NCBI RefSeq assembly: GCF_036669915.1
Contig: NC_089314.1
Coordinates: forward strand, 31,866,134 to 31,930,133
Reading direction: 5' to 3'
DNA length: 64,000 bases
Origin: Pocillopora verrucosa
Lineage: Eukaryota > Cnidaria > Anthozoa > Scleractinia > Pocilloporidae
Made by a program: the position numbers and the translations under genes. The first letter of the stretch is position 1; each line of letters starts with the position of its first letter. The notes beneath the pieces were generated by a model. It ran no database searches. It was given only the letters and a program-made list of their open reading frames with translations, and had not been told where the DNA came from. This document shows positions 4,527 to 53,500 of this stretch, one piece after another.

Positions 4527-7500
4527 TCAGTTTGATCCTTGAGATTCCTGAGCCATCAGAGCCTCGATTTCATCTACCGTACGAGGCACATCTGTCAACA
4601 GCTCCACGCCTTCGGACGTCACCACTATGTCGTCTTCGATATGGACCTGGAAACATCAACAAAAGTAAATTCGTTTCATTTGAAGCAGCTGAAAGTTAAA
4701 AGCATGAGTCAAAAAATAAAGACGTGGTTGTCACTAAAACACCCAGACTCGTAAACATTCGTTATCTACCTGTTTTGTGGGGAGAGAAGATTGGATACAA
4801 GAGTGTTGAGAGGGGTGTCTCAATCCATCCCCGTATCCAATCTTCTCTCCCCACAAAACACGTAAATAACGACTGGGTACGAGTCTGTAAAACACCTTCC
4901 TACAATGAATGATTAAGTCTCAAGAATATCTCACCCCTCCAAAATTCCAAAATCGGTTTAAGACTTCTCGGTTGAAGAAACACGCCGTCTCAGGATTTTC
5001 TAGTGCCTCCTCGATAACCTCGAAAAACATAAGCAGAGTTAGTGACAGTTGGTTAATCTGTGTTGCACACCAACATAACATGTCCAGCACACAATAGTGA
5101 CATCATCATCAATGAACTTGCGTCAAGTGCAGTTGTATTTCCGGCCTTAAATTGCATGTGCAACGAAAAATTTAAAGACGACTTGAACCAAACTGAACGT
5201 ACATTCTTATCAACAGTCGGCGACAAATATGCTGAACATTACCATGTCTGTCCCGCTTGAATAAAGCATCCCTTTCTCCGATCCCCCTTCTCTCTCCCCC
5301 AGAACAACGTTGTGAACTGTTTATCGTACGATAGTTCTAGTATTATTCTTGGTTTTTCCACAAATGGGATACTTCACATGAAATTCTGACTTACTCCACG
5401 AATGAAATGAATTCCTGGTTCAATGGTGAGCACCATGCCTTCCTCCAGGACACGGGTAGTTCTGAGCGAGCAGAGGCCTGGTTCATTAATTCTTTCGGTT
5501 CCCTGTAAAAAAACATTCGAACACTTATTTTTCGACCCAGGTTCTTTATAAGTGGATCACCAACTTTGTTTTGTCCTGACTATGATATATTGCGTTTGAA
5601 CCGCTAGATGAAACATTTCCTTTTTTAAGTTTGAAAGGAGTCATGGATATGTTATCTTAAATGGGAAAAAAATGTAACACGCAAGGATGCTTCGGATAAT
5701 TTCACATCATTATCAACTGGAAGATTTGCGAGTAAGGGTCAAAGTTACCGAAGCCGAGGGGGTCATAAATGCAACACACAAGGAGATACCTGGTTTAAAA
5801 CTTTCTTCGAGAAATATCCACCAACATCAGCATTAAACTGAACTCTCAAATAAATCAACTTCTCCTTCGTCAATTTCTTCTAAAACGTCTTCGAATTGTT
5901 CTTTAATTTCCGATATCTTAATTTTCAGCGCATAAAAGGTAAGCTATTCAATCTACATGCGCGTGCGCGTGCGTGCGTGGGTAAACCGTAGTTATTACGT
6001 CAACCATCATGTAACAAACAGCAAAACCGTTTATGTAACCATGGAGTTCCGTTATTCAGTTGCAGGATGGCTTCACTTGGTAACGGAGGAGGTTTACATG
6101 ATGTGTGCTGTATTCCGGACTGAACAGTGAAAAGCGCCTTGGGTGTTCTTCTTGGCAGCAGAGTACGTATCGATTACTTTGCTTTTTACTGAATCATGGA
6201 CAGGAAGAAATTATAACTGCAAAACAAAGCCGAGAGGGAAACCTCTCGGCTATGTTTTGCAAATGTTTTTCCGGCACAAAAAGTAAGGATAAGGCGCCCA
6301 ACCTTATTAACGATTTATCGCCGATTGCGGCGCGTTCGTCCGCCAGCAAATATCGCAGGCGATCTTCGCCATTGAGATGCGAAAAAGCTTGGCGTTTTTT
6401 TTTCGCCGATCGCCGTAAAGTGGTACTTCAGCTTTATGCATACTTCGCGCGCACCGATGAAAACGGACAAAATGATGACAGAGAAGCAAAAACGTTTTCT
6501 TTTTGTAACCGAAGCGCTTCAGAAAGCGATCTGCAAAGTGGGCTTTTCAAAACACTAGACGATTTAATTTACTCCTCTCATCTGTCCAAAACCAGGTTCC
6601 GCTTTCATCAGCCGTTTTGAAAAGTCGTACGATAAAGTCGCTTATTTTAATTGGTTGCTTTCACCAGCGATTAGCAGCGGTGAGAGAAGAAAATCGCGGG
6701 AACGAATGACAGCGAAAGGTAGTCGCCGATATCTGACTTGCCAGATGTCGGCGATTTTATACGCCAGTCGCCGCGACCAGCGTATAAAATCGCCTAACCC
6801 AAACCTTAACCCTAACCCTGGGAAAAAGTGTTTCTCCTTTCACAAAATCACTTCCATAAGAAGGCGAAGAGCTGTTTCTTATACTAGCAATATGTAGAAG
6901 AAGCGAGTTTTCATACCCGTTTGGATATGTCTTCTTGACGTCCTAAAGCAAAAACAAAGGTACAAGGAGCCTCTATAACCTCTCTTCTTCAAAAGCCATA
7001 TGATAAAAGTGGTTTATTCATAGTGATTTGAGTGAAACCAAGAAAAAAATGCTGGTGATTTTCAGGCCATTTTCTCTATTGTGTGGCGCGCGCTCCGCCA
7101 ATTAATTTTTAATTCTTAAGTCTTGACAAGTCCCGCTACGCGATGATCGAAAAAAAAAACAGAACGTGGAATCATTTAGTTCGTCATGTTGATTGCTATC
7201 CTTATTCATAGCAGCCTATCAAACTATGAATAGCAAGTAATTAATTCAAATGCAATCTTGTGATACATTCATCAAAACTTAGAGGTACACACGCCGATAT
7301 AAAAAAACAACAACAACAACAACATCAAGAGAGCTTAAGTATCGCTTCAACCATCTTCCTTGACATACCTTTGGATATCCTCCAACATCGTGTACATCAA
7401 GGCCCATCAAATGTCCCAAACCATAAGGCATAAAAACAGCACCCACATGTAACTTCATCATCTCATTTATGTCCCCTTGTAAGAGCCCTATGTCTCTGAG

Positions 7501-10500
7501 GCCCTCCAATTGAACACGGTCTGCTAAACGGTGCATATCAGCCCAGCTGACACCTAAACATTGAAAACAAATGTTTAGGCGACATGGCTGGTTTTCCATA
7601 CAGGAACTGAAAGATGATGGGACAATCGTAAAGGGAACAAGTGCCACAAAACAGGGATCTGAATAACACGTGACAAAGCTTACATTCTTAGCGATGACCA
7701 TTGATTATGCCAATTAAAAAGCAACGGCGAGTAATTTTGCAGAGCTACAAACATAGTTCTTACTCTACGACAGACAATGTTATTTACCAGGTTTTATTGC
7801 TATTATAACTGCTCGGTTTGCCCGCAGACAAATTTCATAAATCATTCTCTGATCGTCTGTAAACTTGCCATTGGCTGGAAATGAACACGTGATGTCTGAA
7901 GCATAGCAGTAATACTCACAACCCATGTCAAATAGACTACAGAAAAAAAGAAACGTTATGATATTTTACATATTTCGAGCCTCAGATACGCCAAGGAATC
8001 TCATAGGGAAGGATTTAGGAACTAAGTGAATTGATAAATCTTGCAACAGATTCTCTTAGGCTTGTAACGCAAATTCTCTTGCCATTATTTTCTGCTGGCC
8101 GGAGAAATTGCGTAACAAGCTTAATGATAACAAGTCATGGTACAGAGTTCCTCTATCAGTCAGGTGCCATCCTTCCTTAGCAATACGGTACGGCAAAAAC
8201 GTTTTTGTACATTTTATTTTCATTTTTTCAGTTTGAAAAACACTTTGCTCACAAAAATTACTTTCACACATTGAACCATGAAAAAAACACTTCACATACT
8301 TCAATCACTAGTATGGCTTTTCTTCCTGCTCTTATGCGGACTCCGTGATAAAATTACTTATTTATTCAACAAAGTTGAGATTTAGTAAGTTAACGTAAAT
8401 AACACGAGTAAATTTTCGCTTAATTTTTTTGGGTAAATCCGGGAAAATGACGGAAACAATATTCCGTTATAAAATTCATTCATATGGTAGTTAGTGATCA
8501 TGAGCTATAGTAAATTTCTCGGAAGTAGAGAGATTCAGATTGCCTAACTTACCACATGTCTCCATCCCGTATAACTTTACTATCCACTTCAACTGTATGA
8601 GAAGGACAAGCACAGTCGACACCACTAAGAAATATATATAAAAAAAAAGGACAACTATCTACAAATAATTTACGTACTAGTAAAAAAAAAAACGCTTTAG
8701 AAGCGGGCTTCTAAGAGGGCTGGATCAGTGCTGTCACTTATGTATCAGTTATTCGACTGTACCTTGCCATTAAGCAGTTGTAGGCTAAGTGGCGGCATCC
8801 CCCGTGATAAAAACAATAGTGCTGGAACAGACTGTGAGAAATTAATAGAAGGATCAAGGTAAATTTGACACTGAAACAAAATCAATCATATCACATATAC
8901 CAACCATTAACCTATTTTACTGATTCACTTTTATCCACCACTGAGTTTAGGATCAGCAAGATTGTGATAACATCTTTAAACACATACCTTTCTAATTGAT
9001 ATGTGGACATCCCTGGTCTTATACGTTTCATCACCTATGGATGAAAGGCAATTAGAGTACTCGGTTGGTTAAAGCTTACGATCAGGGTTAGGGTCAATAA
9101 GCTCTTCACTTAAACTAAATGATCAAAATACTCCCCAAACTTACATCTCAACCTCTTAAATCTTATTCTGATTCTGAGTATGAACATCATTTAACTGGGA
9201 TTGCATAAAAAAAATTCAGACAGAAATTGTAAAACACAGAATAGCTTTGGGTTTTAAAACATTATTTTGTGATAACCCAGTAGTGATGCACTCACCTCCT
9301 TGTGTGCTTTACTGCTGATTTTGTTAGCATAACGAATCACTTCCAGTTCCTGAGCTGTTTTGAATACACGACTAAGAAAATATACAGATATATAAATATG
9401 AACCTCACCTGGAGAATGATTTTATGTTATTGGGAGGGAATTTATCATAAACCAATTCTCCTACATAAAAACAGCAACACCAATTAATTTGAGTTACAAA
9501 ATTTTTGGAGGTATTTGTAAAGATCTTGTTAGCCTACACAATAGCCACTCCCCCCAGTAATTATCCAGAGGTATCAAAAGTAGACAGTCAACAAAACAGA
9601 GGAACATCACCTCACCATTCAGAAATCTCTGGATGTAAAATAGTATTGTCTACATGGAACCTAGCAGGAAAAACATTAATGTTGTGTAGTTAAGTTACTT
9701 TATAGCTTCCGTGGCTGATGTGAACTGGAGATAAGAAAAGAAAATGATGCCCTATACCAAGTGCTTCAGGCTTAAACACAATTCTTTTTCAAATTCATTA
9801 CCAGTACATTAACCCTTTAATTACTGATGGTGACTGGTATCAAATTTCTTCTTACAATATCACCTATGAATCAAACACTTTAGTCACAAGATTAAGGAAC
9901 TGATCACCAACTGAAAAAGCTCTTGATTGTTAAACAATTCTTTTTTTCAGCACCTTAAGAAATGTATAAAGAACAGTATGGACAATAGGATGTAAAGGGT
10001 CAACCATTGATAGTATTTGGTATTAGGAGGAAATTGTGAACCTCACAAAATCTCTATAACTAAAAGTTGATTAGAAAGTAGACCTTTGAGAGGTAAATTC
10101 TGAAATTTGAATTCCAACATTAATACCATAACATTATTGTCTTACATTACAATACAGTATCCAACACCTGATTGAATTCCAAAACTAATTACTTGTTAAT
10201 GTTTTCAAATGTAGCTTCTTTGCAAATGTGCCTTGAATCTGTGTTTACACCTTTCTAAAAAGCAAATATTAAAATGATTAATTTACTGTAGGTGCTCAAA
10301 ATGAAGGATGTGCTGATCAGGCTTGGTCAAATAAAGTTTAAGAAACTTTCTGAATTCTCCTACACATGACACCTTAGTGGGAGCATAATAAGTGTAACCT
10401 TAATGCAAATAAAATAAGTATATTAATGTATGTGATGTTAACCTTAAATTAAGGATGTATGCCATATGACCTTATATGGACAAATTAGAATAAAATTTGA

Positions 10501-13066
10501 TCCAATCTGATCCTCAACATGGCTCTTGTGTTTGGTGCTGTCACACATTTAATAAAATAAAAAACATTTTGGGTTCCTTGGTGCTCCACCCAGCTCCAAT
10601 GTTACTTACTAATGTGAGAATAACAGAGGGATTTTTCTTTTGCAACACATCAGCAATCTGAGTAACAAAGAAAAATTGAGGAGATATTTCATTCATTTGA
10701 TGAATTCTGAAGTAAAGTAGGCTTTCATAAATAACTTTTTTAGAATTGTACTGTAGTTTGCAGTGATCCAAGTAAGTTTTAGGCAATTTTACTCACTACA
10801 AAGTGATCCAGGTAAGTCCTAGTTGATTTTACCCAGTTGAGCAGTCCAAGTTAATCTGGTCCAACTTTTGTAACTGCCTAGCTAATGAAAATGTATGACT
10901 TATGTTCAGAGTACTGGGATGGATTACATTAGGCTATTTACAGACCTGGTTGGTGTAGTAGACTTCTTCTACTTCATAATGTTTCCTAAAGTGCTCTAAA
11001 CTGTTCCTCCTACAAATGAAATTTTTGAGAAATATCATACAGTCATGACATGTGTTACAAATGCAGAGCATGGGTTCAACAGAAACATTCCTCTGTATCA
11101 TTATTGCTTAAGTAGGTATGTATTTTGATGAAGGGTTGGTTTGATGTAACTTTTAACCAAAATTAAGTGTTTTTGTGAATTCTTCCCTAGTCATCCCAGA
11201 TAATTGTGGATGATCATAAATTGAAAATAAAGCAAATTTTGACTTACACCCCAATCCATTTATGATACCCTGGAGGAGGTTTGGGAAAAAACAAAATAGC
11301 ACAGGTGCTTTCAACCTCAACTGCACCAAGACAACCTGCTTCTAGTACACCAAATGTCCAGTGGAAAAATGACTCCTAAAGTGAGAGAAACAAATGACAT
11401 TAACTTCATTTCAAACATCAGCTTGGTCTTCTTAATCTTCTCCATGTGACCACCTTATGTAGATGGCCAGCTAGACTTCACCCTTTAACTCCCAGAAGTG
11501 ATAAGCATGTAACTTCTCCCAATCATATCTATACAATATCCAGCAAACAGGTAATGAGAATACTCAAACATATCAGGTAGAAGTTGTTGTCTTGATCTAA
11601 CACCAAATTCTCAAAACTAATTCTTAAGGAAATGGGTAACAACTAGAGGAGAGAATTAACACTTAGTCTGGCAGCACACCAGAAGTTTGAAAAGAACAAG
11701 TTAACAACACTCTCCTAAATACCAAACACTGGATTGTAAATAAACCAACCCCCACCATCGTTACATAAGTAATTAGTGCTGGAATTATGTGTGCTGTTGG
11801 TAACCACAGCCAATAAATCAGCTGATACATGCATTAATGGTCTATTCATACATCATTCAGTAGTTGATACATAGCCTATCATAGCTGATTGAAAGTTGGT
11901 CAAAAGTAGCATGGTAGTGAAGTGATATGTACAGTCAAGGTGCTGTTAGCAAATGTCTCTTCTAGACAGGAGGCACACATATTGACTGAGACATCCCCCC
12001 ACAAAGTTTCAAGTGTTGTTCAGCTACCAGGTGACTATCTAGCGATGTATTAACTGAACAACCAATGCTGCATATCACACACATGATCCAAATACTGTAT
12101 TCCTTTAACAATATTAAGGAGAGAAAATTGCAAAATCTCACTGTAAAGATGTTTAAGCAAGTAAGATGTAAATCAAACCTGTCGAAATACAGCATCTACA
12201 TCCGTGCAATATCTTTGATGCTGCTCCCCTCCTTGAAGTAATATCATTGCTCCTTTTGGAACAGCTTTGTTATCGGTAAGTCGCTCACAAAGTCGTCTTC
12301 GGTTGATAGTGTGAAGGCTCAAGGGAACAGCCAGGGAGCTGTTCCCAAACTGATAAAATGACCTTAAAATTTTCAAATTGATAATACGATCATGTATATA
12401 TAACTATTGGCTGATTACCTTTTTGAGAGACAAATTCCATACTGCTATGAGCCTGTTCATAATAGATCACAAATGACATCGAATTGTGGTCAAAACGAAA
12501 AAAGGCACATTTTGACATCTTTGATCTATTGCTGAACAGACGCGTGGAAATTTGGAATCTACTCGTTTTATATAAATAAAGAAGAAAAGTTGGCAATAAT
12601 AGCCATTAAGTTGATAATAAAAACTGTTAGGTAATACAGTAACTGCAATTCCATTTCACAAAGATCAGAAGATACCATCAATTTGCTCTTACAAACTAGA
12701 GTCTGAAGTGTTCTACTTTAGAGGGTAAATTTTTCAATACAAATTCTTAAATCAATATGTTACAAGTTGTGGATGCCTAAGGCTATTTCTAAACAATACC
12801 CCCATAATTTGTATGAATTCGTTAATGGTTCAATGTTAAAAATAATTTGATTGCTTAATATTATAGAACTATTACCTATCGTATTATATTGTAATATTTT
12901 GACGTCGACTGAGATGCTCCACATTGAAATTGAGAGAAAGAAACTCACGAATTCAAATGATGCTCCCAGTCATGAACACATCATTAAGGCCATACGGAAA
13001 TATCTGCATAACAGAAAAGCAAATTTAAATATGTTGTTTAACTTACTTTGTCTCGACTGTTGCCAT
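4527..13066 (-). CDS. prolidase (Xaa-Pro dipeptidase) paralogue A, divergent active site
   Basis: Sixteen exons, in transcript order: 13047-13066, 12179-12362, 11248-11375, 10946-11009, 10610-10657, 10193-10254, 9616-9660, 9296-9371, 8988-9034, 8763-8831, 8553-8624, 7788-7936, 7369-7553, 5395-5502, 4935-5018 and 4527-4646. They give 486 residues with no frameshift or stop. The pita-bread metallopeptidase fold is recognisable. All five expected metal ligands are present: Asp275 (LFDMG), Asp286 (SDITC), His369 (GLGH), Glu411 (TIEPG) and Glu451 (HIED). Other conserved residues have changed. The [11 protein letters not shown] segment is replaced by [11 protein letters not shown] and exon 11 is two codons shorter than in copy B. 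HGLGH reads YGLGH, VRIED reads VHIED, and GLRSLR reads GLCSLR. Normal prolidase splits Xaa-Pro dipeptides in the cytosol. This copy could have altered specificity or be a pseudo-enzyme; I therefore withhold the PEPD symbol. Confidence 0.9.
4744..4887. repeat. palindromic MITE-like element, family 2
   Basis: This inverted repeat lies in the last intron of prolidase A. It begins CAGACTCGTA and ends TACGAGTCTG. The inner arms (TGTTTTGTGGGGAGAGAAG with CTTCTCTCCCCACAAAACA) are perfectly complementary, and the arms span about 60 bp around a short loop. There is no coding capacity. It is typical of a non-autonomous DNA transposon, of a family distinct from family 1. Confidence 0.8.
6219..6260. repeat. 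perfect hairpin, GC-rich stem
   Basis: AGCCGAGAGG and CCTCTCGGCT pair around a GAAA loop, extended by GCAAAACA and TGTTTTGC. It lies in prolidase A intron 13 and overlaps the ATG of the small open frame that follows. It could be a transposon terminus or a structured RNA element. Confidence 0.6.
6252..6620 (+). CDS. possible nested small ORF, N-terminus MFCKCF, unknown
   Basis: An open frame of 122 codons runs on the strand opposite to prolidase A, inside its intron 13. From this ATG the product begins Met-Phe-Cys-Lys-Cys-Phe-Ser, a cysteine pattern that could in principle be acylated, and continues basic and Ser/Arg-rich. The stretch is visibly richer in CG dinucleotides than the surrounding intron. 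I recognise no domain. An upstream in-frame ATG at 6105 would lengthen it to 171 codons. It may be a fragment of a mobile element, a nested gene, or chance. Expression data or conservation would be needed to accept it. Confidence 0.2.
   Translation: MFCKCFSGTKSKDKAPNLINDLSPIAARSSASKYRRRSSPLRCEKAWRFFFADRRKVVLQLYAYFARTDENGQNDDREAKTFSFCNRSASESDLQSGLFKTLDDLIYSSHLSKTRFRFHQPF
6725..6822. repeat. two tandem hairpins followed by telomere-like repeats
   Basis: The first hairpin (6725-6752) pairs GCCGATATCTG with CAGATGTCGGC, one mismatch. The second (6751-6793) has 14-bp perfect arms, GCGATTTTATACGC and GCGTATAAAATCGC, and an inner GTCG/CGAC stem. Directly after come units of the CCCTAA type (TAACCC-AAACCT-TAACCC-TAACCC), the animal telomere motif. 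It lies in prolidase A intron 13. This may be a transposable-element end or a healed break. Confidence 0.65.
9811..10016. repeat. possible MITE with ACCCTTTAA ends
   Basis: The block opens with TAACCCTTTAATTAC and closes with GTAAAGGGTCAA, giving imperfect inverted ends like those of the clearer copy at 34046-34249. It lies in an intron of prolidase A. No coding capacity. Confidence 0.35.
11483..11640. repeat. truncated copy of the ACCCTTTAACTCCC MITE
   Basis: CACCCTTTAACTCCCAGAAGTGA at the left matches the terminus of the element at 34046-34249, and internal AT-rich sequence also resembles it. The right terminus is missing. It is intronic in prolidase A. Confidence 0.45.
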
Positions 13067-15044: not shown

Positions 15045-18000
15045 TTAATTTGCTACTTGGGATGAAACTGAAGGGGAGAAATGGGGCGGGAGACTGGCTC
15101 CCTCTGCCATCAAAGCCTCGATTTCTTGCACAGTACGTGGAACACACGTCATCAGCTCCATTCCATCTGACGTCACCACAATACCATCTTCAATTCGAAC
15201 CTGGACAAAATCAAAACGGTATGTTAGGTTTTTAAATCTCAAGATTTTACCTGGTACTTCTTTGTGGAAATCTTACCATCTTTAGCATTTGGGGTAGAAT
15301 CATTGGTGACAAACATTTTTGGGACGAAAACAACACTAATTTGAAGTCAGGTAAAAATTCTCACCCCTCCAGAATTCCTGAATCGCTGTAGCATTTCTTG
15401 ATTGAAGAATCGCGCCGTCTCAGGGTTTTCCAAAGCAGGATTCAAAGTCTGAAAATAGAACAAATCTCCATTTCACTGGTAACTATCTTATTCCCTTCAA
15501 AAAATATTTGCAAGTAAAAAGGCCTCCGAGGTAATTACCAAGCAGTCGTTACTTACAGCATCAATAAAATAAAGTCCTGGCTCAATGGTCAGTACCATTC
15601 CCTCCTCTAATACACGAGTGGTTCGGAGCGAGCGGAGGCCTGGTTCTTTTAACCGTTCAGTACCCTGCAAATTTCAAATGGTAATGAACGGACTAGTCTC
15701 AAATTGTGTAAGATTTAAAGAAATTGGAGTTGACAAGACTCTGGCAGAGTACAAGGTCAGAACTTTCTTTGTTATAGTGCTAGGCGAAGAAATGAAATGA
15801 GTTTAACCGAAAGAAAAAAAACTACTAGAGCTTCAGGAAAAAGAAAAAACAGAGACGAGATAGAGATAGGGGAGAGGTGACAACAAAGGAGACACATACA
15901 TCAAATTCACAGAGACAACACCCTTCCTGGTTAAGTAGAATATTGAAAAAAAATCCTAGTGATATGCAGGAACCTATCATATGGCGAAGCATCGGTCACA
16001 TTGGGAAATTTTTCTTCCTTTGAACCAGTTTGCTGTAACTGAATTCACTATGTTAATGGTAAGATTTTTACCTCTGGGTATCCTCCAACATCGTGCACAT
16101 CCAGTCCCATTAAATGTCCCAGACCATGAGGCATAAAAACAGCCCCAAGATGAACCTTCATCATTTCATCCAGGTCTCCCTTCAGGAGCCCCATGTCTCT
16201 AAGACACTGTAGCTGGACACGCTCTGCCAAACGGTGCATATCAGGCCACTTTACACCTGTTGAGGGTAACGACCTATTTTTGAAAAATGCAATGCTATAA
16301 TGGCATAACACTCTTAACAGGCCACATACTTACAACGACCAATTTTCTCCGGAAGAACAGGCTAAAATGTGCCTGTCACAATGTCAGCAATAGCAAAAGA
16401 AAATTCTGAACAAAAAAATAAATCACTGTTTTCACTCGCTTTGCGTTGTTACCAGTCCTCCTTGTTTGGTTTATTCAGTTTTGTTGATACATTTAATTAA
16501 TTAAAACAAAACAAAACAAAAAAAAACAGGTGTCGCTAAATGTTTTTTTTCCACTATATATCGCGATTATTTCTCTGAATATATGACAAAGCGTCAGAAC
16601 CTGGAGCTTAGATAACTACAAAAAGGCACTTATAACAGCACTTACCAGGTTTAACGGCTGCCATGACTGCACGACTGGCTTTGTAGACGGCTTCATAAAT
16701 ATTACGCTGATCATCTGTGAACTTGCCATTGGCTGGAAAAGAACAAGTGATGTCTGACGTATAGCAATAGTATTCTCCTCCCATGTCAAACAAGCTGTAA
16801 AGTGGAGCAAAGGAAAATAAACAACAACGGCTACAAAATAATATTAGTAAAACAGCCATTACAGAGATCAATTTGAATAAATTGATTAACAACATGGCCA
16901 AAAGTCTATTTACGAGCATCACACTGAACTATCTTATACAAAACCAGAGTTGGTGCTGTCAGTTGATGGGCTATTACTTGGTGTAGAAGACACAGTATAC
17001 GTCACAATAGAATTTCATTACAACCGGGAATGAGAAAACAATGAAAACAACAGTGTGACGTATTCTGTGTCTTCTACACCATGTAAAAGCAAGTTGATGG
17101 TGAAGGCTTTAAAGGACTTTTCAACCGAGACAGCACCTGAGCAATTATCCTTGAAAGACACTTGCCTCAATAGCATTATCACACCCAAACAGAACTCTTT
17201 AATTGCTTTCTTTATTCTCAAACCGTTTTAGCTTGACTTCTCAATAAATGAATTATTCATTTGTTAGAATTATGTTCAACTCACCACAGATCTCCATCAT
17301 GGATCTTCTTGTCATTTGGTGCTCCTGCATGGCCATAATGGAGAGTAGCACAGTTATGACCACTGAAAGAGAATTATTAACACGATAAACCACTGAAGTT
17401 TTATTCTGCAAGGGGAAGGCTGAGATATTCCAATATCTCCTCTGTTTATATTCATAGGAAATAATATTGTCAGTATTCAAAATTGCCCTGAATTTGAGAC
17501 TCTTCAGTAGTGCAGTACTGAACTCTGCAGTAGAAATGTTAATTCTATGGACCTTGTCACCATTTGTTGATTAAAAACATATTTTTTCTTGGTTGAATGA
17601 CTTAAATGTTACCTTGCTCCAATACATGTGTAGGACATATGACGACATCCACCCTGAGAATAGCAGAAGTGCCGGAACAAGCTGCAATGTACAATTGACT
17701 TCAATCATCAGCTGACTCCATGATTTTTGATAAAATTTGAGTCAATGCTTCAACATTGTGGGTTAATTTACATTTATGGTATTAACCCTATTGGCTAAGA
17801 ATCACATTCTTGCACAAAATTCCATGCCACTTTTCTATATATGAATGAGAAAGTAACTGAAAATTCAATTTACCTTTCTATTTCAAATTCTGCCATCCCA
17901 GGTCTGATACGTTTCATCACCTAAGATAAACAACAATCATCATGGTCACACTTTCAATAAGATCTAGTCACAGTTATTAGAAAGCATGTTTTGGCTCAGA

Positions 18001-27975: not shown

Positions 27976-28983
27976 TCAATAGTGCGACCCCAACCAAAAA
28001 GAATAAAAATCAACAGAGTGCATGTGTAACTGTTGAATTAAACACTGACCAAGTACCTGATGTTGAACAAGCACATTAGGTGTGAAAAAGCAATCATCAT
28101 AATTAGAATTTGGAAACAGGAACCAGCTGTGATGTACTGGTGTTAAACCCAATTCATGCGCTATTATCCCCACATAAACATCGTCGATTCGAAATGGATT
28201 AATCACCTCAAATGAAGGAACCATACACTCCACCACATCATAAGAAAGAATAAAACCGCCCCCGCTACAATAATCTGGAAAAGCTGAACCAGCATATTCT
28301 TTGTGACTAACGGAGAACTTGCCATAGCGACGAACTTCAGCGTTTCTGTTTATTTTCCCCATGTACAGACCATTTTTTGGTGTTGATGGGCGTTGTAAAC
28401 GAGTTATCAAATCGTTGGTGTTCACTAAAACATCATCATCTGCCTTCAAAAGATATGAAAATTTGCAGTATCTCGCGGCCCACTCAAATCCCATCGCTAC
28501 TTTCAAACTTTGATTCCAGTAGTGTTCAGAGTAATTAGCACGAATAATATCACCATGGATTTTATTTTCTGCCTTTAGTAGATCAGAATCAGTTTGATTC
28601 TTTGTTTGTCCAACTAAAAAATATGTCTTCCATTCAGGAACGCTGGTTTTGTCCGTTCCCCAAGTTTGACGAATTAAATCCCTTCTTCCGAAATGTGATG
28701 GTGCTGAAGATACCAAAACGAGAAGGAAATAATTCTGCAAACAAACAGTCTTGGATATCAGAGTGGTTTTGTGTTGTGACTGAGTTGCTTTCCAAGAGTT
28801 ACAGTTTTTGCGGAGACTAACTAATGACTTGGGTGAGAGATTAGCCAAAAACGAAGTTAACGCCGTCATCAAAGCGGCTGCCATCGTTAACTTGATGAGA
28901 AGCTTATATTTGCTTCCAGTGAACATTTTACTGCAAAGTGGAGCTGACATTTTCCATCTACCAGTCTGGAAAAACTTTATCAC
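27976..28983 (-). CDS. beta-1,3-galactosyltransferase-like enzyme (GT31), intronless
   Basis: A single uninterrupted frame of 335 residues. A hydrophobic segment at about 28-48, after a short basic N-terminus, fits a type II Golgi anchor. The catalytic domain has the family signatures in order: RRDLIRQTWG (100-109), FLVG (122-125), the metal-binding DDD in KADDDVLVN (180-188), DYCSGGGFILS (237-247) and DDVYVG (267-272). Family members transfer Gal or GlcNAc from UDP-sugar to glycans in the Golgi. Acceptor and donor cannot be told from sequence, so B3GALT, B3GNT or a lineage-specific member are all possible. The second Met (residue 12) is an alternative start that keeps the anchor. Lack of introns is common in this family and also compatible with retroposition. 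Confidence 0.9.
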   Translation of the reverse strand: MIKFFQTGRWKMSAPLCSKMFTGSKYKLLIKLTMAAALMTALTSFLANLSPKSLVSLRKNCNSWKATQSQHKTTLISKTVCLQNYFLLVLVSSAPSHFGRRDLIRQTWGTDKTSVPEWKTYFLVGQTKNQTDSDLLKAENKIHGDIIRANYSEHYWNQSLKVAMGFEWAARYCKFSYLLKADDDVLVNTNDLITRLQRPSTPKNGLYMGKINRNAEVRRYGKFSVSHKEYAGSAFPDYCSGGGFILSYDVVECMVPSFEVINPFRIDDVYVGIIAHELGLTPVHHSWFLFPNSNYDDCFFTPNVLVQHQVLGQCLIQQLHMHSVDFYSFWLGSHY

Positions 28984-29234
28984 TAATTATAACTTGGCAG
29001 GCAGCTGTGGACTGGGGATGAAAAAAATAATTATAACCTAAAAAAAGGCCAAACAATGAAATGTCCTTGGTGTGCCTCTCCTAACCGAGGTCGTGCAAAG
29101 CTAGAAACAGCTGAAACTCATGTGTCCTGATTGGCCAGATTTCGAGAGCACGCTTTGCTCTCGGAGCATGCGATTTTCCATACTTAGAGAAACCAGTTCA
29201 CGCTGTTACTACGGCGAGCAACAGCGAGATGTGT

Positions 29235-48402: not shown

Positions 48403-50502
48403 TTAAGCCTCAGAGACGATGGACAATCTCGGAGTCCATCCCATGTCCCGTCGTCGCCCGGAACTTGTCCGTAATTTGATCTTCTGAGGCTCCAAGACGT
48501 CACTGTCTTCCTCTCGAGGTGGGATAAACGACAGCTCAGAGCGAGCTTTTTGTTGGGATTCAGGTATCAAATCCAAAGGGAGTCCCCACGCACCATCAGG
48601 GCACTGCAAAGATGGAAGAGAGGCGGGTCTATCGTGTTCAGGCTCAAGATGACTGTTAAAGTGGCTAGTGGGTACTGTATTGCCCCGGTTACGCGGCAAT
48701 GTTATAGCTGCGTCGTTATATAACTTATCACTTAAGTGTCTACGAGTTGAGGTCCCCTTGGATTTATCATTGTCAGGTTTACTGATCGGGCTTTCAATCT
48801 CAGTCTGTGGTTGACGATCAAATCGGCCACTAGCTGCTGAGTAGTTACCGTTAGGTGGCAATGCGTGGTCAAGTAATTCTTCACTGGAATATCGCCGAGA
48901 TGACGAGTTCCTAGGTTTGTGTAGCAGCTCAAGTTCAAGGTGACTGTCAGAGTGTCCAGCCCGTGGGGTGTTGCTTCGGTCGAATGGCAACGTGCGAATT
49001 GTGTGCTCAATCAATTTCTCGTTGGAGTTTCGCCGAGTTGAATGGTTTCTAGGAACAGTGCCATCAGGAATTTTCTCCAGCATTTCACGACGATCTGATC
49101 TTTTCTTACGTGCTCTGTCATCAGTGAGCCCTTTGCGCGCTGATTCACTTTGCCGCATATGATTTCCAACGGCATTTGTGCGTTCATCCTCACTCCCTTG
49201 GAATGTGCTGAAGCTGGGTCTTCTAGAAACACTTTCTTGAGACACTAAAGACGCTCCGTCAACTGAAGATGTTCGCCTTTTAGAGCGACGACAAGTGCTG
49301 CTGATCCTTTTGTTATCGTCATCAGTGTCGTGGCCGCTGTCTTCGCTTGCTGCGTTTCCAGTATACATAGTTGTCACAACAGGCTGCAGAGAAGCGGTGC
49401 GTGACACGTCAGTTTGATTGCCCAGACTACGTATACTTGAGGTTCGACTTGTTGGCCTCAGCGAACCGTTTAAGCTCTTATTGCCAAGGGTGTTACATCG
49501 GTCACAACCACTACCACTTGCTCGCCTAAGTGCGTTCTGTCTGTGAAACGCAAGTCTCTGAATAATGCTGTCTCTCTTTCGGTTGATAAATACAAAATAA
49601 AACAAAAAGCTTCCAACAGTGAAAAGCAAAACAGGTCCACCAAAGACCGCCAAGTAAAACCAAATACGGGGCTCACAACGCCAAGTTGTTACAAGGTCAC
49701 TACTGTGATAATCAAGGTTCTGTGTTACTTCAAGCACGCCGACCTCGGATGACCCAAACAGTAATCTCGCCGAACATGCTTCGTCCGCACCCGCGCTACA
49801 ACTGAAAACTGAAGAATCCACATCGTACACTTTGCGGCTTATAATCATACCAAGGTTCATTTTTGAAACTTCATTCTCTTTTTTGGAGTATTTAAAAAGA
49901 ATAAAGAAGTAGCCTGTTTCTTTTGCGGAAAGAGTGTAAGATATTCTGGAAGGCTGCGAGAAGGATTCCTCCTCAGAGAGGCCGCTTTCCTCCGAAGAAT
50001 CCCCATTTTGAAGGATCCATTCATCAAGTCTTTTTCTGTCCTTGAAAATAAAAAGCTTCAACAGTCTATTAGACTCGGCATTTATAACGACGGAAGATCC
50101 TTCTAGTAAATAGAAACTCTTGTACCAATAATTAAATTTTGACACTAATACATCTGTGGAAATATTTGTTCTTCGCAGTTGGGGACTTACGCGTGAAGAC
50201 GGCAGAATCCACAATTTCCGTTTCGACGAATCTTGTCCAAGCGATATGTCTTCACAGAAAGCCGTAGATACCGATATCAGCCTCATATCGCCTTGAGTGA
50301 GATCATAAGTTTGCGACAGAAAAGCTGAGAAGTTCAAAATAAGAATAATAAATGCCAATGCTGCTGATAACACGACCAAACTAGATATTCCAGCGCAAAT
50401 CCAAATTCGAAGCCGCCATTGTTGGTTTTTCATGTATTTCTTCCCATCAAGGTTGTCTGGTACATAGATGGCCTCAACTGTTGTGGTCGCTGCCATATCC
50501 AT
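48403..50502 (-). CDS. two-pass membrane protein with APD1-4-like luminal domain and repeated Arg/Ser-rich tail
   Basis: An intronless frame of 699 residues. TM1 spans about 33-58 and TM2 about 281-306. The 220-residue segment between them has NIS, and its order KVYDVDSSVFSCS...ACSARLLF followed by a hydrophobic VGVLEV strand resembles the middle domain of plant and animal APD1-4-type proteins (an E3 ligase family). This assignment is from pattern only. The cytosolic tail (307-699) is hydrophilic, rich in Arg, Ser and acidic patches, and contains three imperfect repeats of about 50 residues. Each starts S-RR--S-E/D-L near residues 486, 532 and 582. RRxS motifs suggest basophilic kinase sites. 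No RING finger is present, so if it is an APD relative it has lost or never had ligase activity. The single-exon structure is unusual in this intron-rich locus. Confidence 0.8.
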   Translation of the reverse strand: MDMAATTTVEAIYVPDNLDGKKYMKNQQWRLRIWICAGISSLVVLSAALAFIILILNFSAFLSQTYDLTQGDMRLISVSTAFCEDISLGQDSSKRKLWILPSSRVSPQLRRTNISTDVLVSKFNYWYKSFYLLEGSSVVINAESNRLLKLFIFKDRKRLDEWILQNGDSSEESGLSEEESFSQPSRISYTLSAKETGYFFILFKYSKKENEVSKMNLGMIISRKVYDVDSSVFSCSAGADEACSARLLFGSSEVGVLEVTQNLDYHSSDLVTTWRCEPRIWFYLAVFGGPVLLFTVGSFLFYFVFINRKRDSIIQRLAFHRQNALRRASGSGCDRCNTLGNKSLNGSLRPTSRTSSIRSLGNQTDVSRTASLQPVVTTMYTGNAASEDSGHDTDDDNKRISSTCRRSKRRTSSVDGASLVSQESVSRRPSFSTFQGSEDERTNAVGNHMRQSESARKGLTDDRARKKRSDRREMLEKIPDGTVPRNHSTRRNSNEKLIEHTIRTLPFDRSNTPRAGHSDSHLELELLHKPRNSSSRRYSSEELLDHALPPNGNYSAASGRFDRQPQTEIESPISKPDNDKSKGTSTRRHLSDKLYNDAAITLPRNRGNTVPTSHFNSHLEPEHDRPASLPSLQCPDGAWGLPLDLIPESQQKARSELSFIPPREEDSDVLEPQKIKLRTSSGRRRDMGWTPRLSIVSEA

Positions 50503-53500
50503 AGCGTTCTTTTCATTCGTTACTGTGTAAATAACATCAGAAGAACTTACGATCGACTCACTGGCCTCAAACGACCCGTAACAACGGATGGAAACGTGAT
50601 ACGACTTTGGAAGTCAAAGGGGTTTAAACTGTCACACGCTTGTCAACACGAATATAGACAGCTGGTAGCTGTGGTCGGTATTCCATTTGTTTTCTTTTGC
50701 AAATATTTTTTTCCAGCCAACTTATCAGGCTGGATTTAATTTTAATTTTCAACGTATATTACTTAAATCACATCTTCTGTTAACAATATTGATCTGTACA
50801 AGTGAGCTGCTCTTTGCCTGGTAACTGTACAGGAAACTGCGCCCTTGCCACACCTATCCCAAACAAATAAAAGTCAAAAGTACCGCCAGGCTAAACAACC
50901 TTGATAAACAAAATTCTTAAACGTTCGAAAGGTTTTCAGACTTTACTGCGGTATATGCTTCTCTCTTCTCGTAAATTCTTGAAAATAACTCGTGGGAATT
51001 ATTTTGCTCTCGCAAAAGTGTATTCGCTTATCACTTCAGGACTTTCTCGCAGCGACCAAAAAGTTAAATGAAAAAACACGCTGGAGTATGACCGTTAAAG
51101 CGTTTTTCCTTCCCGCTAGCCTGCAGTATTATCTGAAGCTATTTATGATGAAGAAAATCATTTTTATTATTACACACCCAAACTTTTCAACAGCTCTTAA
51201 TTTTTGGGTTTGTTGTTTGCAGTATGTCTTTTTCGTAGACCATTCTATCAGTAACAAATAGCTTCAACTGATTATTTAGCCTGTAGTTAGCTTGGAGTAG
51301 AGTGAGGGGACAACTGAATGAATTTGTAGGATAGCGTGCGACCAAGGCTCTTTAACTGTGGTAAACCTTGGTCCGGTTAAAATTACATTATTGTAAATTG
51401 AGGCACAGCGACCCCAGAAGGCCACTTCACACATATTTAGACAGACACGTGAACACCGCTGATCCTTCAAACCCGGTTGAAAAGAAAAACACTGTTTACA
51501 AGGCAATAGATAACACCTATTGGTTAAAGGAGTACCAACCCCCACTCCCCGAAGTATCTAGCCCATTGAATATCTGTTGCCATAGGCCATTCAGGTTGAT
51601 GCTTCATTAAGAAACAGGTTGCGGGCGGCCTGATGCCTAACCAGTTCCAGACTCTCAGTCGGTGTAGGCGAGTGAAAAAACGGACGCTGAACGACGAATA
51701 GAGGATGTGGCTGTCGAAACTACGGCTGCGAATTGAAGTAAGCGACTAAAAAAGCGAATTACGAAATTACAGTTAAATGTATATGCAACAATTATTGCAA
51801 ATCCTGTCTTTTAATAAATCGGAATTTTACCGGCCAATTCATTTAAGACTTCCATATAGCTTAAGCTGCTGAGTGAAATTAAAAAAAAAGAGAGAGCTGT
51901 TGGAGTTCTTGTAATACCGGTGTTCACAGTCGTGAATGCCTCACAGCACAATGTAAGCTTGTACAAATAGATATTGCGTGATCATAAGCGGAAATTGTCT
52001 ATATTAGAAGAAGTAGGTCAATGGAAACCACCATTTCCTTTCAGTGTAGATGCCTTTAAATAACTTGTTTTGGTTCGGTAGTTTCCAAAACAATTTCACA
52101 ACCAGCTCTCAGCATGATACATCCTTTCTCATTTTGCGGAGAGGAACTTGCGCTTCCAGTAACAATCGTCAATTTAGACTTTTATTTTCTAATTTGCTTC
52201 TTCACTAAATGTGTGTTTGGATCAACAAGTCTGGGTTGATCTCTCGTGGGCACTATTAGGCGGATAGGATAACTGCACCGAGTAGTTACCGCTTATTTAT
52301 TTCTTTACACATGGTACAGCCATACGTCAGTACATGAGCCCACTCAATCAGGGTTGTTCGGTGCTCTGCTCATTTAGCGGCAAAGTCTATCTTAAATGTC
52401 GATGTCTCTTTGCAGTCCCCTGTTTTATCAGTTACTTTCACTGACAGCTTAAGGCTCCCAGCGAACGCTGAATAACCCAGACCTTAACGCGTATTTAGGA
52501 AAACATGGGGCAATAAATGATCAGATTCCAAACTTTTCACATCGCTTTTCTACCTTTTGCTCATGGGAAGAATACCATCGTTGCCTTTTTTGCTCGATTT
52601 ACCAGAGAAGATTAGCGGTGTTCGAGTTACATGGCGTGGACTGATCTAACACGTCATGTCAAAAAGGCTTTCAGTTCGCGACAGTTACATTTTACCATTC
52701 TTACTTTCCTTTTACAATTTGATTAATATATTGCCAATTATCATATTCACTTCTGACTATCACTGATAGAACTCTGTTTCATCAGTCATTACGAATCTTT
52801 TTGTTGTCCTCCATTAATAGAGATTTGTCTGATTTTAAGGCTCTCAACTGGTTTGCAGCCTTTTAAAAACAGACTAATGGATGTGAGAGAAAATACGAAC
52901 TACAAATACAGAGGGCTGAAGAGGTCAAGGTGGAGTTGGCCAAAGTCACGCGAAGATGGCTTAGACAACACCCAGTAATTATGGAACTTTTTTTTTGTTT
53001 GTTTTTTTTTTGTTTACTGTCTTTTCTCTTTTTAGCCTTTTGTAGGTTGCAATGAATTGACAGAGGTGTACTCTCGGCAGCTTACAGAGGAAATAACAAC
53101 TTTTAGGTAAACTGATAGTAAAGTTAAAAGAAACACAGTAGAGTCATGATGGTCTCCATGGTATGTGAAGTAAACAAACTCGTTAGAAACTCATATTTAG
53201 TGTTGAATATATGTACGTGAGTGAACGGAGACGATATTGGCCTGATACTCATTAACAAGCCATTCTGTCTGAGTGATATGTAGGCCATGCTGTGTAATCC
53301 ACTACTGCGTGCAAACTTTAGTTTAGGAAATATGACACTGACAGAAGATAAGATTGGCAGAAACACCTATCTGTTTTCCCAAAAAAACTGCGTCGAAGTA
53401 AGACAAAAAAAAAAATTTTTTATCTTCAGAGCATGTCAAGTTGAAAGTTTATATTAGCTGTAAGTGGCCGGATTTTAAGACCTCATCTGATGTCACCGCT

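Follow-up and report, generated by a model that had tools for sequence, protein, structure and literature searches.

Can a metallopeptidase paralogue that has kept its entire metal centre, while conserved residues around it have been replaced, still be a peptidase? The question is posed by a locus of the coral Pocillopora verrucosa (genome of 353.4 Mb in 52 contigs), within a 64-kb stretch of DNA (G000:C3:31866134-31930133; here called the window) whose minus strand carries two prolidase genes arranged head to tail, copy B upstream and copy A downstream, 1978 bp apart. An earlier note had seen in copy A either a peptidase of new specificity or a regulatory pseudo-enzyme. Copy A is both a maintained gene and one that has lost conserved catalytic residues, and the reading favoured here, as the probable one, is that of an old tandem duplicate of PEPD turned pseudo-prolidase, a protein that would lack efficient catalysis.

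Gene structure and genomic setting

Exon models rebuilt from the DNA, based on homology and splice signals, give both copies 16 exons, with GT-AG borders at 15 of 15 introns in each and every phase equal, and 14 of the 16 exons have the same length in A and B, as the earlier note had described. The unequal ones are exon 11 (72 nt in A versus 78 in B) and exon 16 (120 versus 156). The reading frames of both copies are open throughout, and that of A, as had been claimed, contains no internal stop. A model of A lacking exon 6, whose frame would shift, was rejected: a lenient search located the exon (Table 1), equal in length to that of B. The Pfam domains AMP_N and Peptidase_M24 are found in both copies (in A at 80.4 and 198.1 bits, each above the Pfam cut-off), and the best PDB match of both is human prolidase 2iw2, at 669.7 bits for A and 768.1 for B. 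A protein search of the coral's own genome gave 22 matches, 21 within the tandem and one on contig C4 (39% identity), and no further prolidase copy was found among its best-scoring candidates; the general M24 family occupies nine places in the genome, including seven beyond the tandem, on C3, C4, C5 and C10. Tandem duplicates are described as common in corals (PMC10236652); the main text of that paper holds no word starting with prolidase, PEPD, dipeptidase or peptidase.

Table 1. The two prolidase genes and selected exons, in positions of the window
Feature	Position	Strand	Basis
Copy A, pseudo-prolidase-like gene, 16 exons, 486 aa	4527..13066	-	exon model; Pfam; PDB match
Copy B, canonical prolidase (PEPD), 16 exons, 500 aa	15045..23772	-	exon model; Pfam; PDB match
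Copy A exon 6, 62 nt, frame-essential, Cys158 equivalent	10193..10254	-	exon model, alignment
Copy A exon 11, substrate loop, 72 nt, H255 unaligned, His257 nearby	8553..8624	-	exon model, alignment
Copy B exon 11, 11-residue loop intact	17285..17362	-	exon model
Copy A exon 12, D275 and D286 (metal ligands) kept	7788..7936	-	exon model, alignment
Copy A exon 13, Y365 replaces H366; H369 ligand and H376 (human H377) kept	7369..7553	-	
Copy A exon 14, R397 (human R398) and E411 ligand kept; H415 replaces Y416	5395..5502	-	
Copy A exon 16, H449 replaces R450; E451 ligand kept; C terminus shortened	4527..4646	-	

Some further features of the window may be recorded here. Intron 13 measures 1866 nt in A versus 407 in B and contains a repeat-like stretch (6280-6830) whose 551 bases match 57 times in the genome when the stretch itself is counted, the other matches being partial, at 67-91% identity and mostly on C5 and C4; an imperfect telomere-like CCCTAA run lies in the same intron at about 6793-6819. 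Intron 15 of A holds an inverted repeat (4744-4887) with 55-nt arms, 91% complementary and separated by 34 nt, which resembles a small foldback element. Elsewhere, the minus strand carries a 336-aa open frame matching Pfam Galactosyl_T at 140.5 bits (27979-28986) and a 736-aa open frame matching the APD1-4 middle domain at 53.2 bits, against a cut-off of 25 (48406-50613), and a short frame on the plus strand (1176-1355) matches SPRY weakly, its 16.6 bits falling short of the Pfam cut-off of 26.3.

Age and constraint of copy A

How long has A been maintained, and under what constraint? The multiple alignment shows the two proteins identical at 326 of 486 aligned residues, and the pairwise alignment at 328; the codon fit gives a dS of 1.59, itself near saturation, a dN of 0.215 and an omega of 0.136. 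The dN/dS near 1 that the earlier note had named as speaking against its proposal is a much poorer fit (2dlnL 215.8). Restricting the fit to the C domain yields an omega of 0.164, and to exons 10-14 one of 0.144; the N-domain ratio is unusable through saturation (dS 20), and the whole-gene value was used. If all amino-acid change is assigned to A and dS is halved equally, the omega of A becomes 0.27; with the split seen against human the branch values are about 0.18 for A and 0.09 for B, assuming an equal division of dS and human-polarised amino-acid counts. An omega of 0.136 at such a dS means that A is old and constrained, and its 15 retained introns and stop-free frame are likewise those of neither a processed nor a decaying pseudogene. 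In 2000 runs of a neutral simulation the frame stayed free of stops in 4.5% at d = 0.05, in 0.4% at 0.1 and in none at 0.2, 0.4 or 0.8.

In a tree of 35 sequences A and B cluster apart from human PEPD (support 95.3/98), on branches of 0.324 and 0.145, and the duplication seems to postdate the separation from the human lineage, human being the sole other animal in the tree. Against human, A has 64 unique changes and B 33, in proportions of 28:14 in the N domain and 36:19 in the C domain, so that A has evolved about twice as fast as B. Copy A is thus an old gene, not a decaying pseudogene, which purifying selection has long maintained and which has changed faster than its twin. CpG observed/expected ratios are 0.56 (A) and 0.49 (B) in coding sequence and 0.69 and 0.54 over the whole genes, with 0.62 for the window; gene-body methylation is hinted at by the low coding value of A but not by its higher whole-gene value, and this conflict says nothing firm about transcription.

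Active-site residues kept and changed

The residues of A were set against a panel of 33 sequences, comprising human prolidase, E. coli PepP and 31 bacterial relatives (L009, L010 and 29 loci of the class of G001; L024 and L025, the same places as L009 and L010, were dropped before counting). The panel is biased in that 29 of its 33 rows are the best-scoring loci from the 86 matching genomes among 146 searched. As an observation in its own right, bacteria of that class often encode a relative over most of the length of the animal enzyme (L026-L054): 86 of the 146 genomes matched at 1e-50 or better, and of 87 match rows 70 lie at 38-44% identity and 17 at 31-39%.

Fifty-four columns are invariant in the panel, and A retains 49 of them. 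Its five departures, in human numbering, are E219T (T220 of A), H255 (a gap), H366Y, Y416H and R450H. B too departs at two, A285T and I389L. If the criterion is relaxed to conservation in 31 or more of the 33 rows, 134 columns qualify, of which 31 differ in A and 23 in B, with many of these differences common to both copies. Both results for B count against the pseudo-prolidase reading. Human H255, H366, Y416 and R450 correspond to H243, H350, Y387 and R404 of E. coli PepP, once the 24 residues preceding its start in the panel row are subtracted. The Tyr reported for the first His of HGLGH is confirmed as Y365 and the His reported for the Arg of VRIED as H449; a third exchange, which puts H415 where EPG-[IL]-Y has its Tyr (human Y416), had been overlooked. 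H366, Y416 and R450 are invariant in all 33 rows, and the changes H366Y and Y416H are reciprocal Tyr/His exchanges, each one base away between A and B. Together with the H255 loop the changes are spread over four exons (11, 13, 14 and 16). Four of the five departures hit the six non-ligand active-site residues considered (H255, H366, H377, Y416, R450 and W107), a coincidence with a hypergeometric probability of 2.3e-4 over the 54 columns, or 1.7e-3 without H255 and its ambiguous loop, for residues picked post hoc from the prolidase and aminopeptidase P literature. As the earlier note held, all five metal ligands are in place in A (D275, D286, H369, E411 and E451; human D276, D287, H370, E412 and E452), and so are the equivalents of human H377, R398, W107, Y241, C58 and C158; in the panel, H377 is found in 33 of 33 rows and R398 in 32, with a gap in E. 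coli PepP.

The loop encoded by exon 11 calls for separate treatment. The substituted block noticed earlier is real, 13 residues in A against 15 in B, two fewer, and the gap at H255 falls in a loop of different length whose alignment is ambiguous; a neighbouring residue of A, His257, could substitute for H255. An alternative exon 11 with the 11-residue motif intact was not found on the gene strand of A by tblastn with both proteins (E up to 20). An acceptor within the exon (the CAG before TTGAAG) was dismissed on inspection, as its use would shift the frame.

What do these residues do in characterised relatives? In human prolidase, H255 is described as essential in substrate binding, Gly-Pro as held by H377, R398 and H255, the transition state as stabilised by H377 and proline release as involving H255 and W107, while an inter-subunit disulfide joins C58 of one subunit to C158 of the other (PMC8438212). 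The part of the substrate that H255 binds is the proline carboxylate. The roles of H243, H350 and H361 in E. coli aminopeptidase P are reported to be essential, and R404 to bond D260 and Y387 and govern proton transfer; in human cytosolic aminopeptidase P, kcat is given as down 12-fold in R535A (the R404 equivalent) and 6-fold in Y527F (the Y387 equivalent) (PMC5774706). R370 of E. coli PepQ, equivalent to R398, is said to touch the substrate carboxylate (PMC4213023). Three accounts of H243A differ in force: activity is reported as removed in P. aeruginosa PepP, the mutant being expressed and stable to a comparable degree (PMC5723419), as abolished in E. coli PepP, as cited in PMC10377022, and as significantly decreased in efficiency, not abolished, in the E. 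coli enzyme according to PMC4404410. With these published roles, A would have an altered proton relay and a partly altered substrate shell around a retained metal site.

Competing readings and known relatives

Because the residues lost belong to a proton relay and substrate shell common to prolidase and aminopeptidase P, including the Arg-Tyr pair that assists proton transfer, their loss favours lost catalysis over a mere change of dipeptide, and of the two options in the earlier note the pseudo-enzyme gains and the new dipeptide specificity is less favoured. Such a protein would fold as a prolidase and bind Mn2+, would probably retain its dimer surface, to judge from both disulfide cysteines and W107, and would show at best very poor cleavage of Xaa-Pro dipeptides. 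Its role would lie in binding, either as a homodimer holding Pro-containing ligands or as an A-B heterodimer in which the activity or cellular place of B would be altered. A binding role has been reported for human PEPD, which attaches to p53 through the proline-rich domain of the latter (PMC8655031), and the enzymatically inactive mutant PEPD G278D is described as an inhibitory ErbB2 ligand (PMC5173139).

Several points count against this pseudo-prolidase reading. H377 and R398, which serve transition state and dipeptide holding, are retained, and the intact metal ligands are what catalysis would need kept; by analogy with aminopeptidase P, single loss of the Tyr or Arg equivalent might cost only the 6- or 12-fold cited above, and the softer account of H243A (PMC4404410) would point the same way. 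The main doubt is the ambiguous H255 loop with its His257.

Could A instead be an active enzyme, of new specificity or with a rewired proton relay, in which Y365, H415, H449 and the changed H255 loop accompany the intact dinuclear metal site? This is the most serious of the alternatives, though an unlikely one. The five ligands, H377 and R398 are all kept, the H366Y/Y416H exchange is reciprocal and takes a single base at each position, and A is under purifying selection, all of which would suit a working enzyme. However, the equivalents of PepP H243, H350, Y387 and R404 are invariant in 33 of 33 rows, among them the human dipeptidase and the E. coli aminopeptidase PepP, and loss of H243 alone is reported to abolish bacterial PepP activity in two of the three accounts, the third being softer. 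A more specific and rather speculative proposal is that A may have swapped the M24 Arg-Tyr relay for a His-based one (H415 and H449, with Y365) around the intact dinuclear centre, which would make it either a novel hydrolase or a binding protein that senses metal, perhaps as a partner of the active copy.

It is improbable that A is a slow prolidase used in another tissue or stage than B, a case of subfunctionalisation with no new role. The modest kcat losses reported for the single Arg or Tyr equivalent in human cytosolic aminopeptidase P would allow it, and the first exon of A's own together with the intergenic 1978 bp could hold a separate promoter, but a much heavier loss would be expected from four changes in combination, H255 being among the positions affected. 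That A is a pseudogene or a product of faulty assembly is very improbable, as the unusual exon 2 donor (GTTTGA), the diverged exon 1 and a whole-gene CpG ratio above those of the window and of B are outweighed by a stop-free frame with regular splice borders and low omega, by the many stops that neutral decay across the A-B divergence would yield, and by active-site changes lying in four separate exons.

If the pseudo-prolidase reading is true, a long-kept paralogue with its metal site and a reduced catalytic shell would allow evolution to part the catalytic from the binding role, and A would make a simple test case of whether an inactive M24 subunit tunes an active partner. The closest characterised relative is human PEPD (2iw2), an M24B member. 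It shares with A 60% identity (283 of 471 aligned residues), the same two domains, the five metal ligands, H377, R398, W107, C58 and C158; A differs from it in a gap opposite H255 and in Tyr, His and His at H366, Y416 and R450.

Within the fold, the nearest precedent is the pseudo-APP (aminopeptidase P-related) domain of C. elegans PID-5, an M24 relative predicted to be inactive, with Ala reported at the H243 equivalent and heterodimer formation with active APP-1 proposed (PMC10377022). PID-5 has lost its metal ligands and has an eTudor domain, whereas A keeps all five, has no extra Pfam domain and adjoins its parent gene. EBP1/PA2G4 is described as an M24 non-peptidase that acts by binding (PMC11266112), as is proposed for A, but it has only two of the five metal ligands and derives from a methionine aminopeptidase. 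Outside the family, the M14 pseudo-carboxypeptidase CPXM1 has, like A, an active site that resembles that of active members save for a substrate-binding Arg replaced by His, and is reported as inactive on the substrates tried (PMC11266112), suggesting that such a change in an otherwise similar site can accompany inactivity; unlike A, it is secreted and has a discoidin domain. In an open-access library, with most subscription papers outside it, the titles and beginnings of abstracts listed by the searches showed no report of a prolidase-derived pseudo-enzyme. As PID-5, EBP1 and CPXM1 illustrate, inactive metallopeptidase paralogues are already known, and A is an inactive-looking M24 paralogue rather than a new class, one that its full set of metal ligands separates from PID-5 and EBP1.
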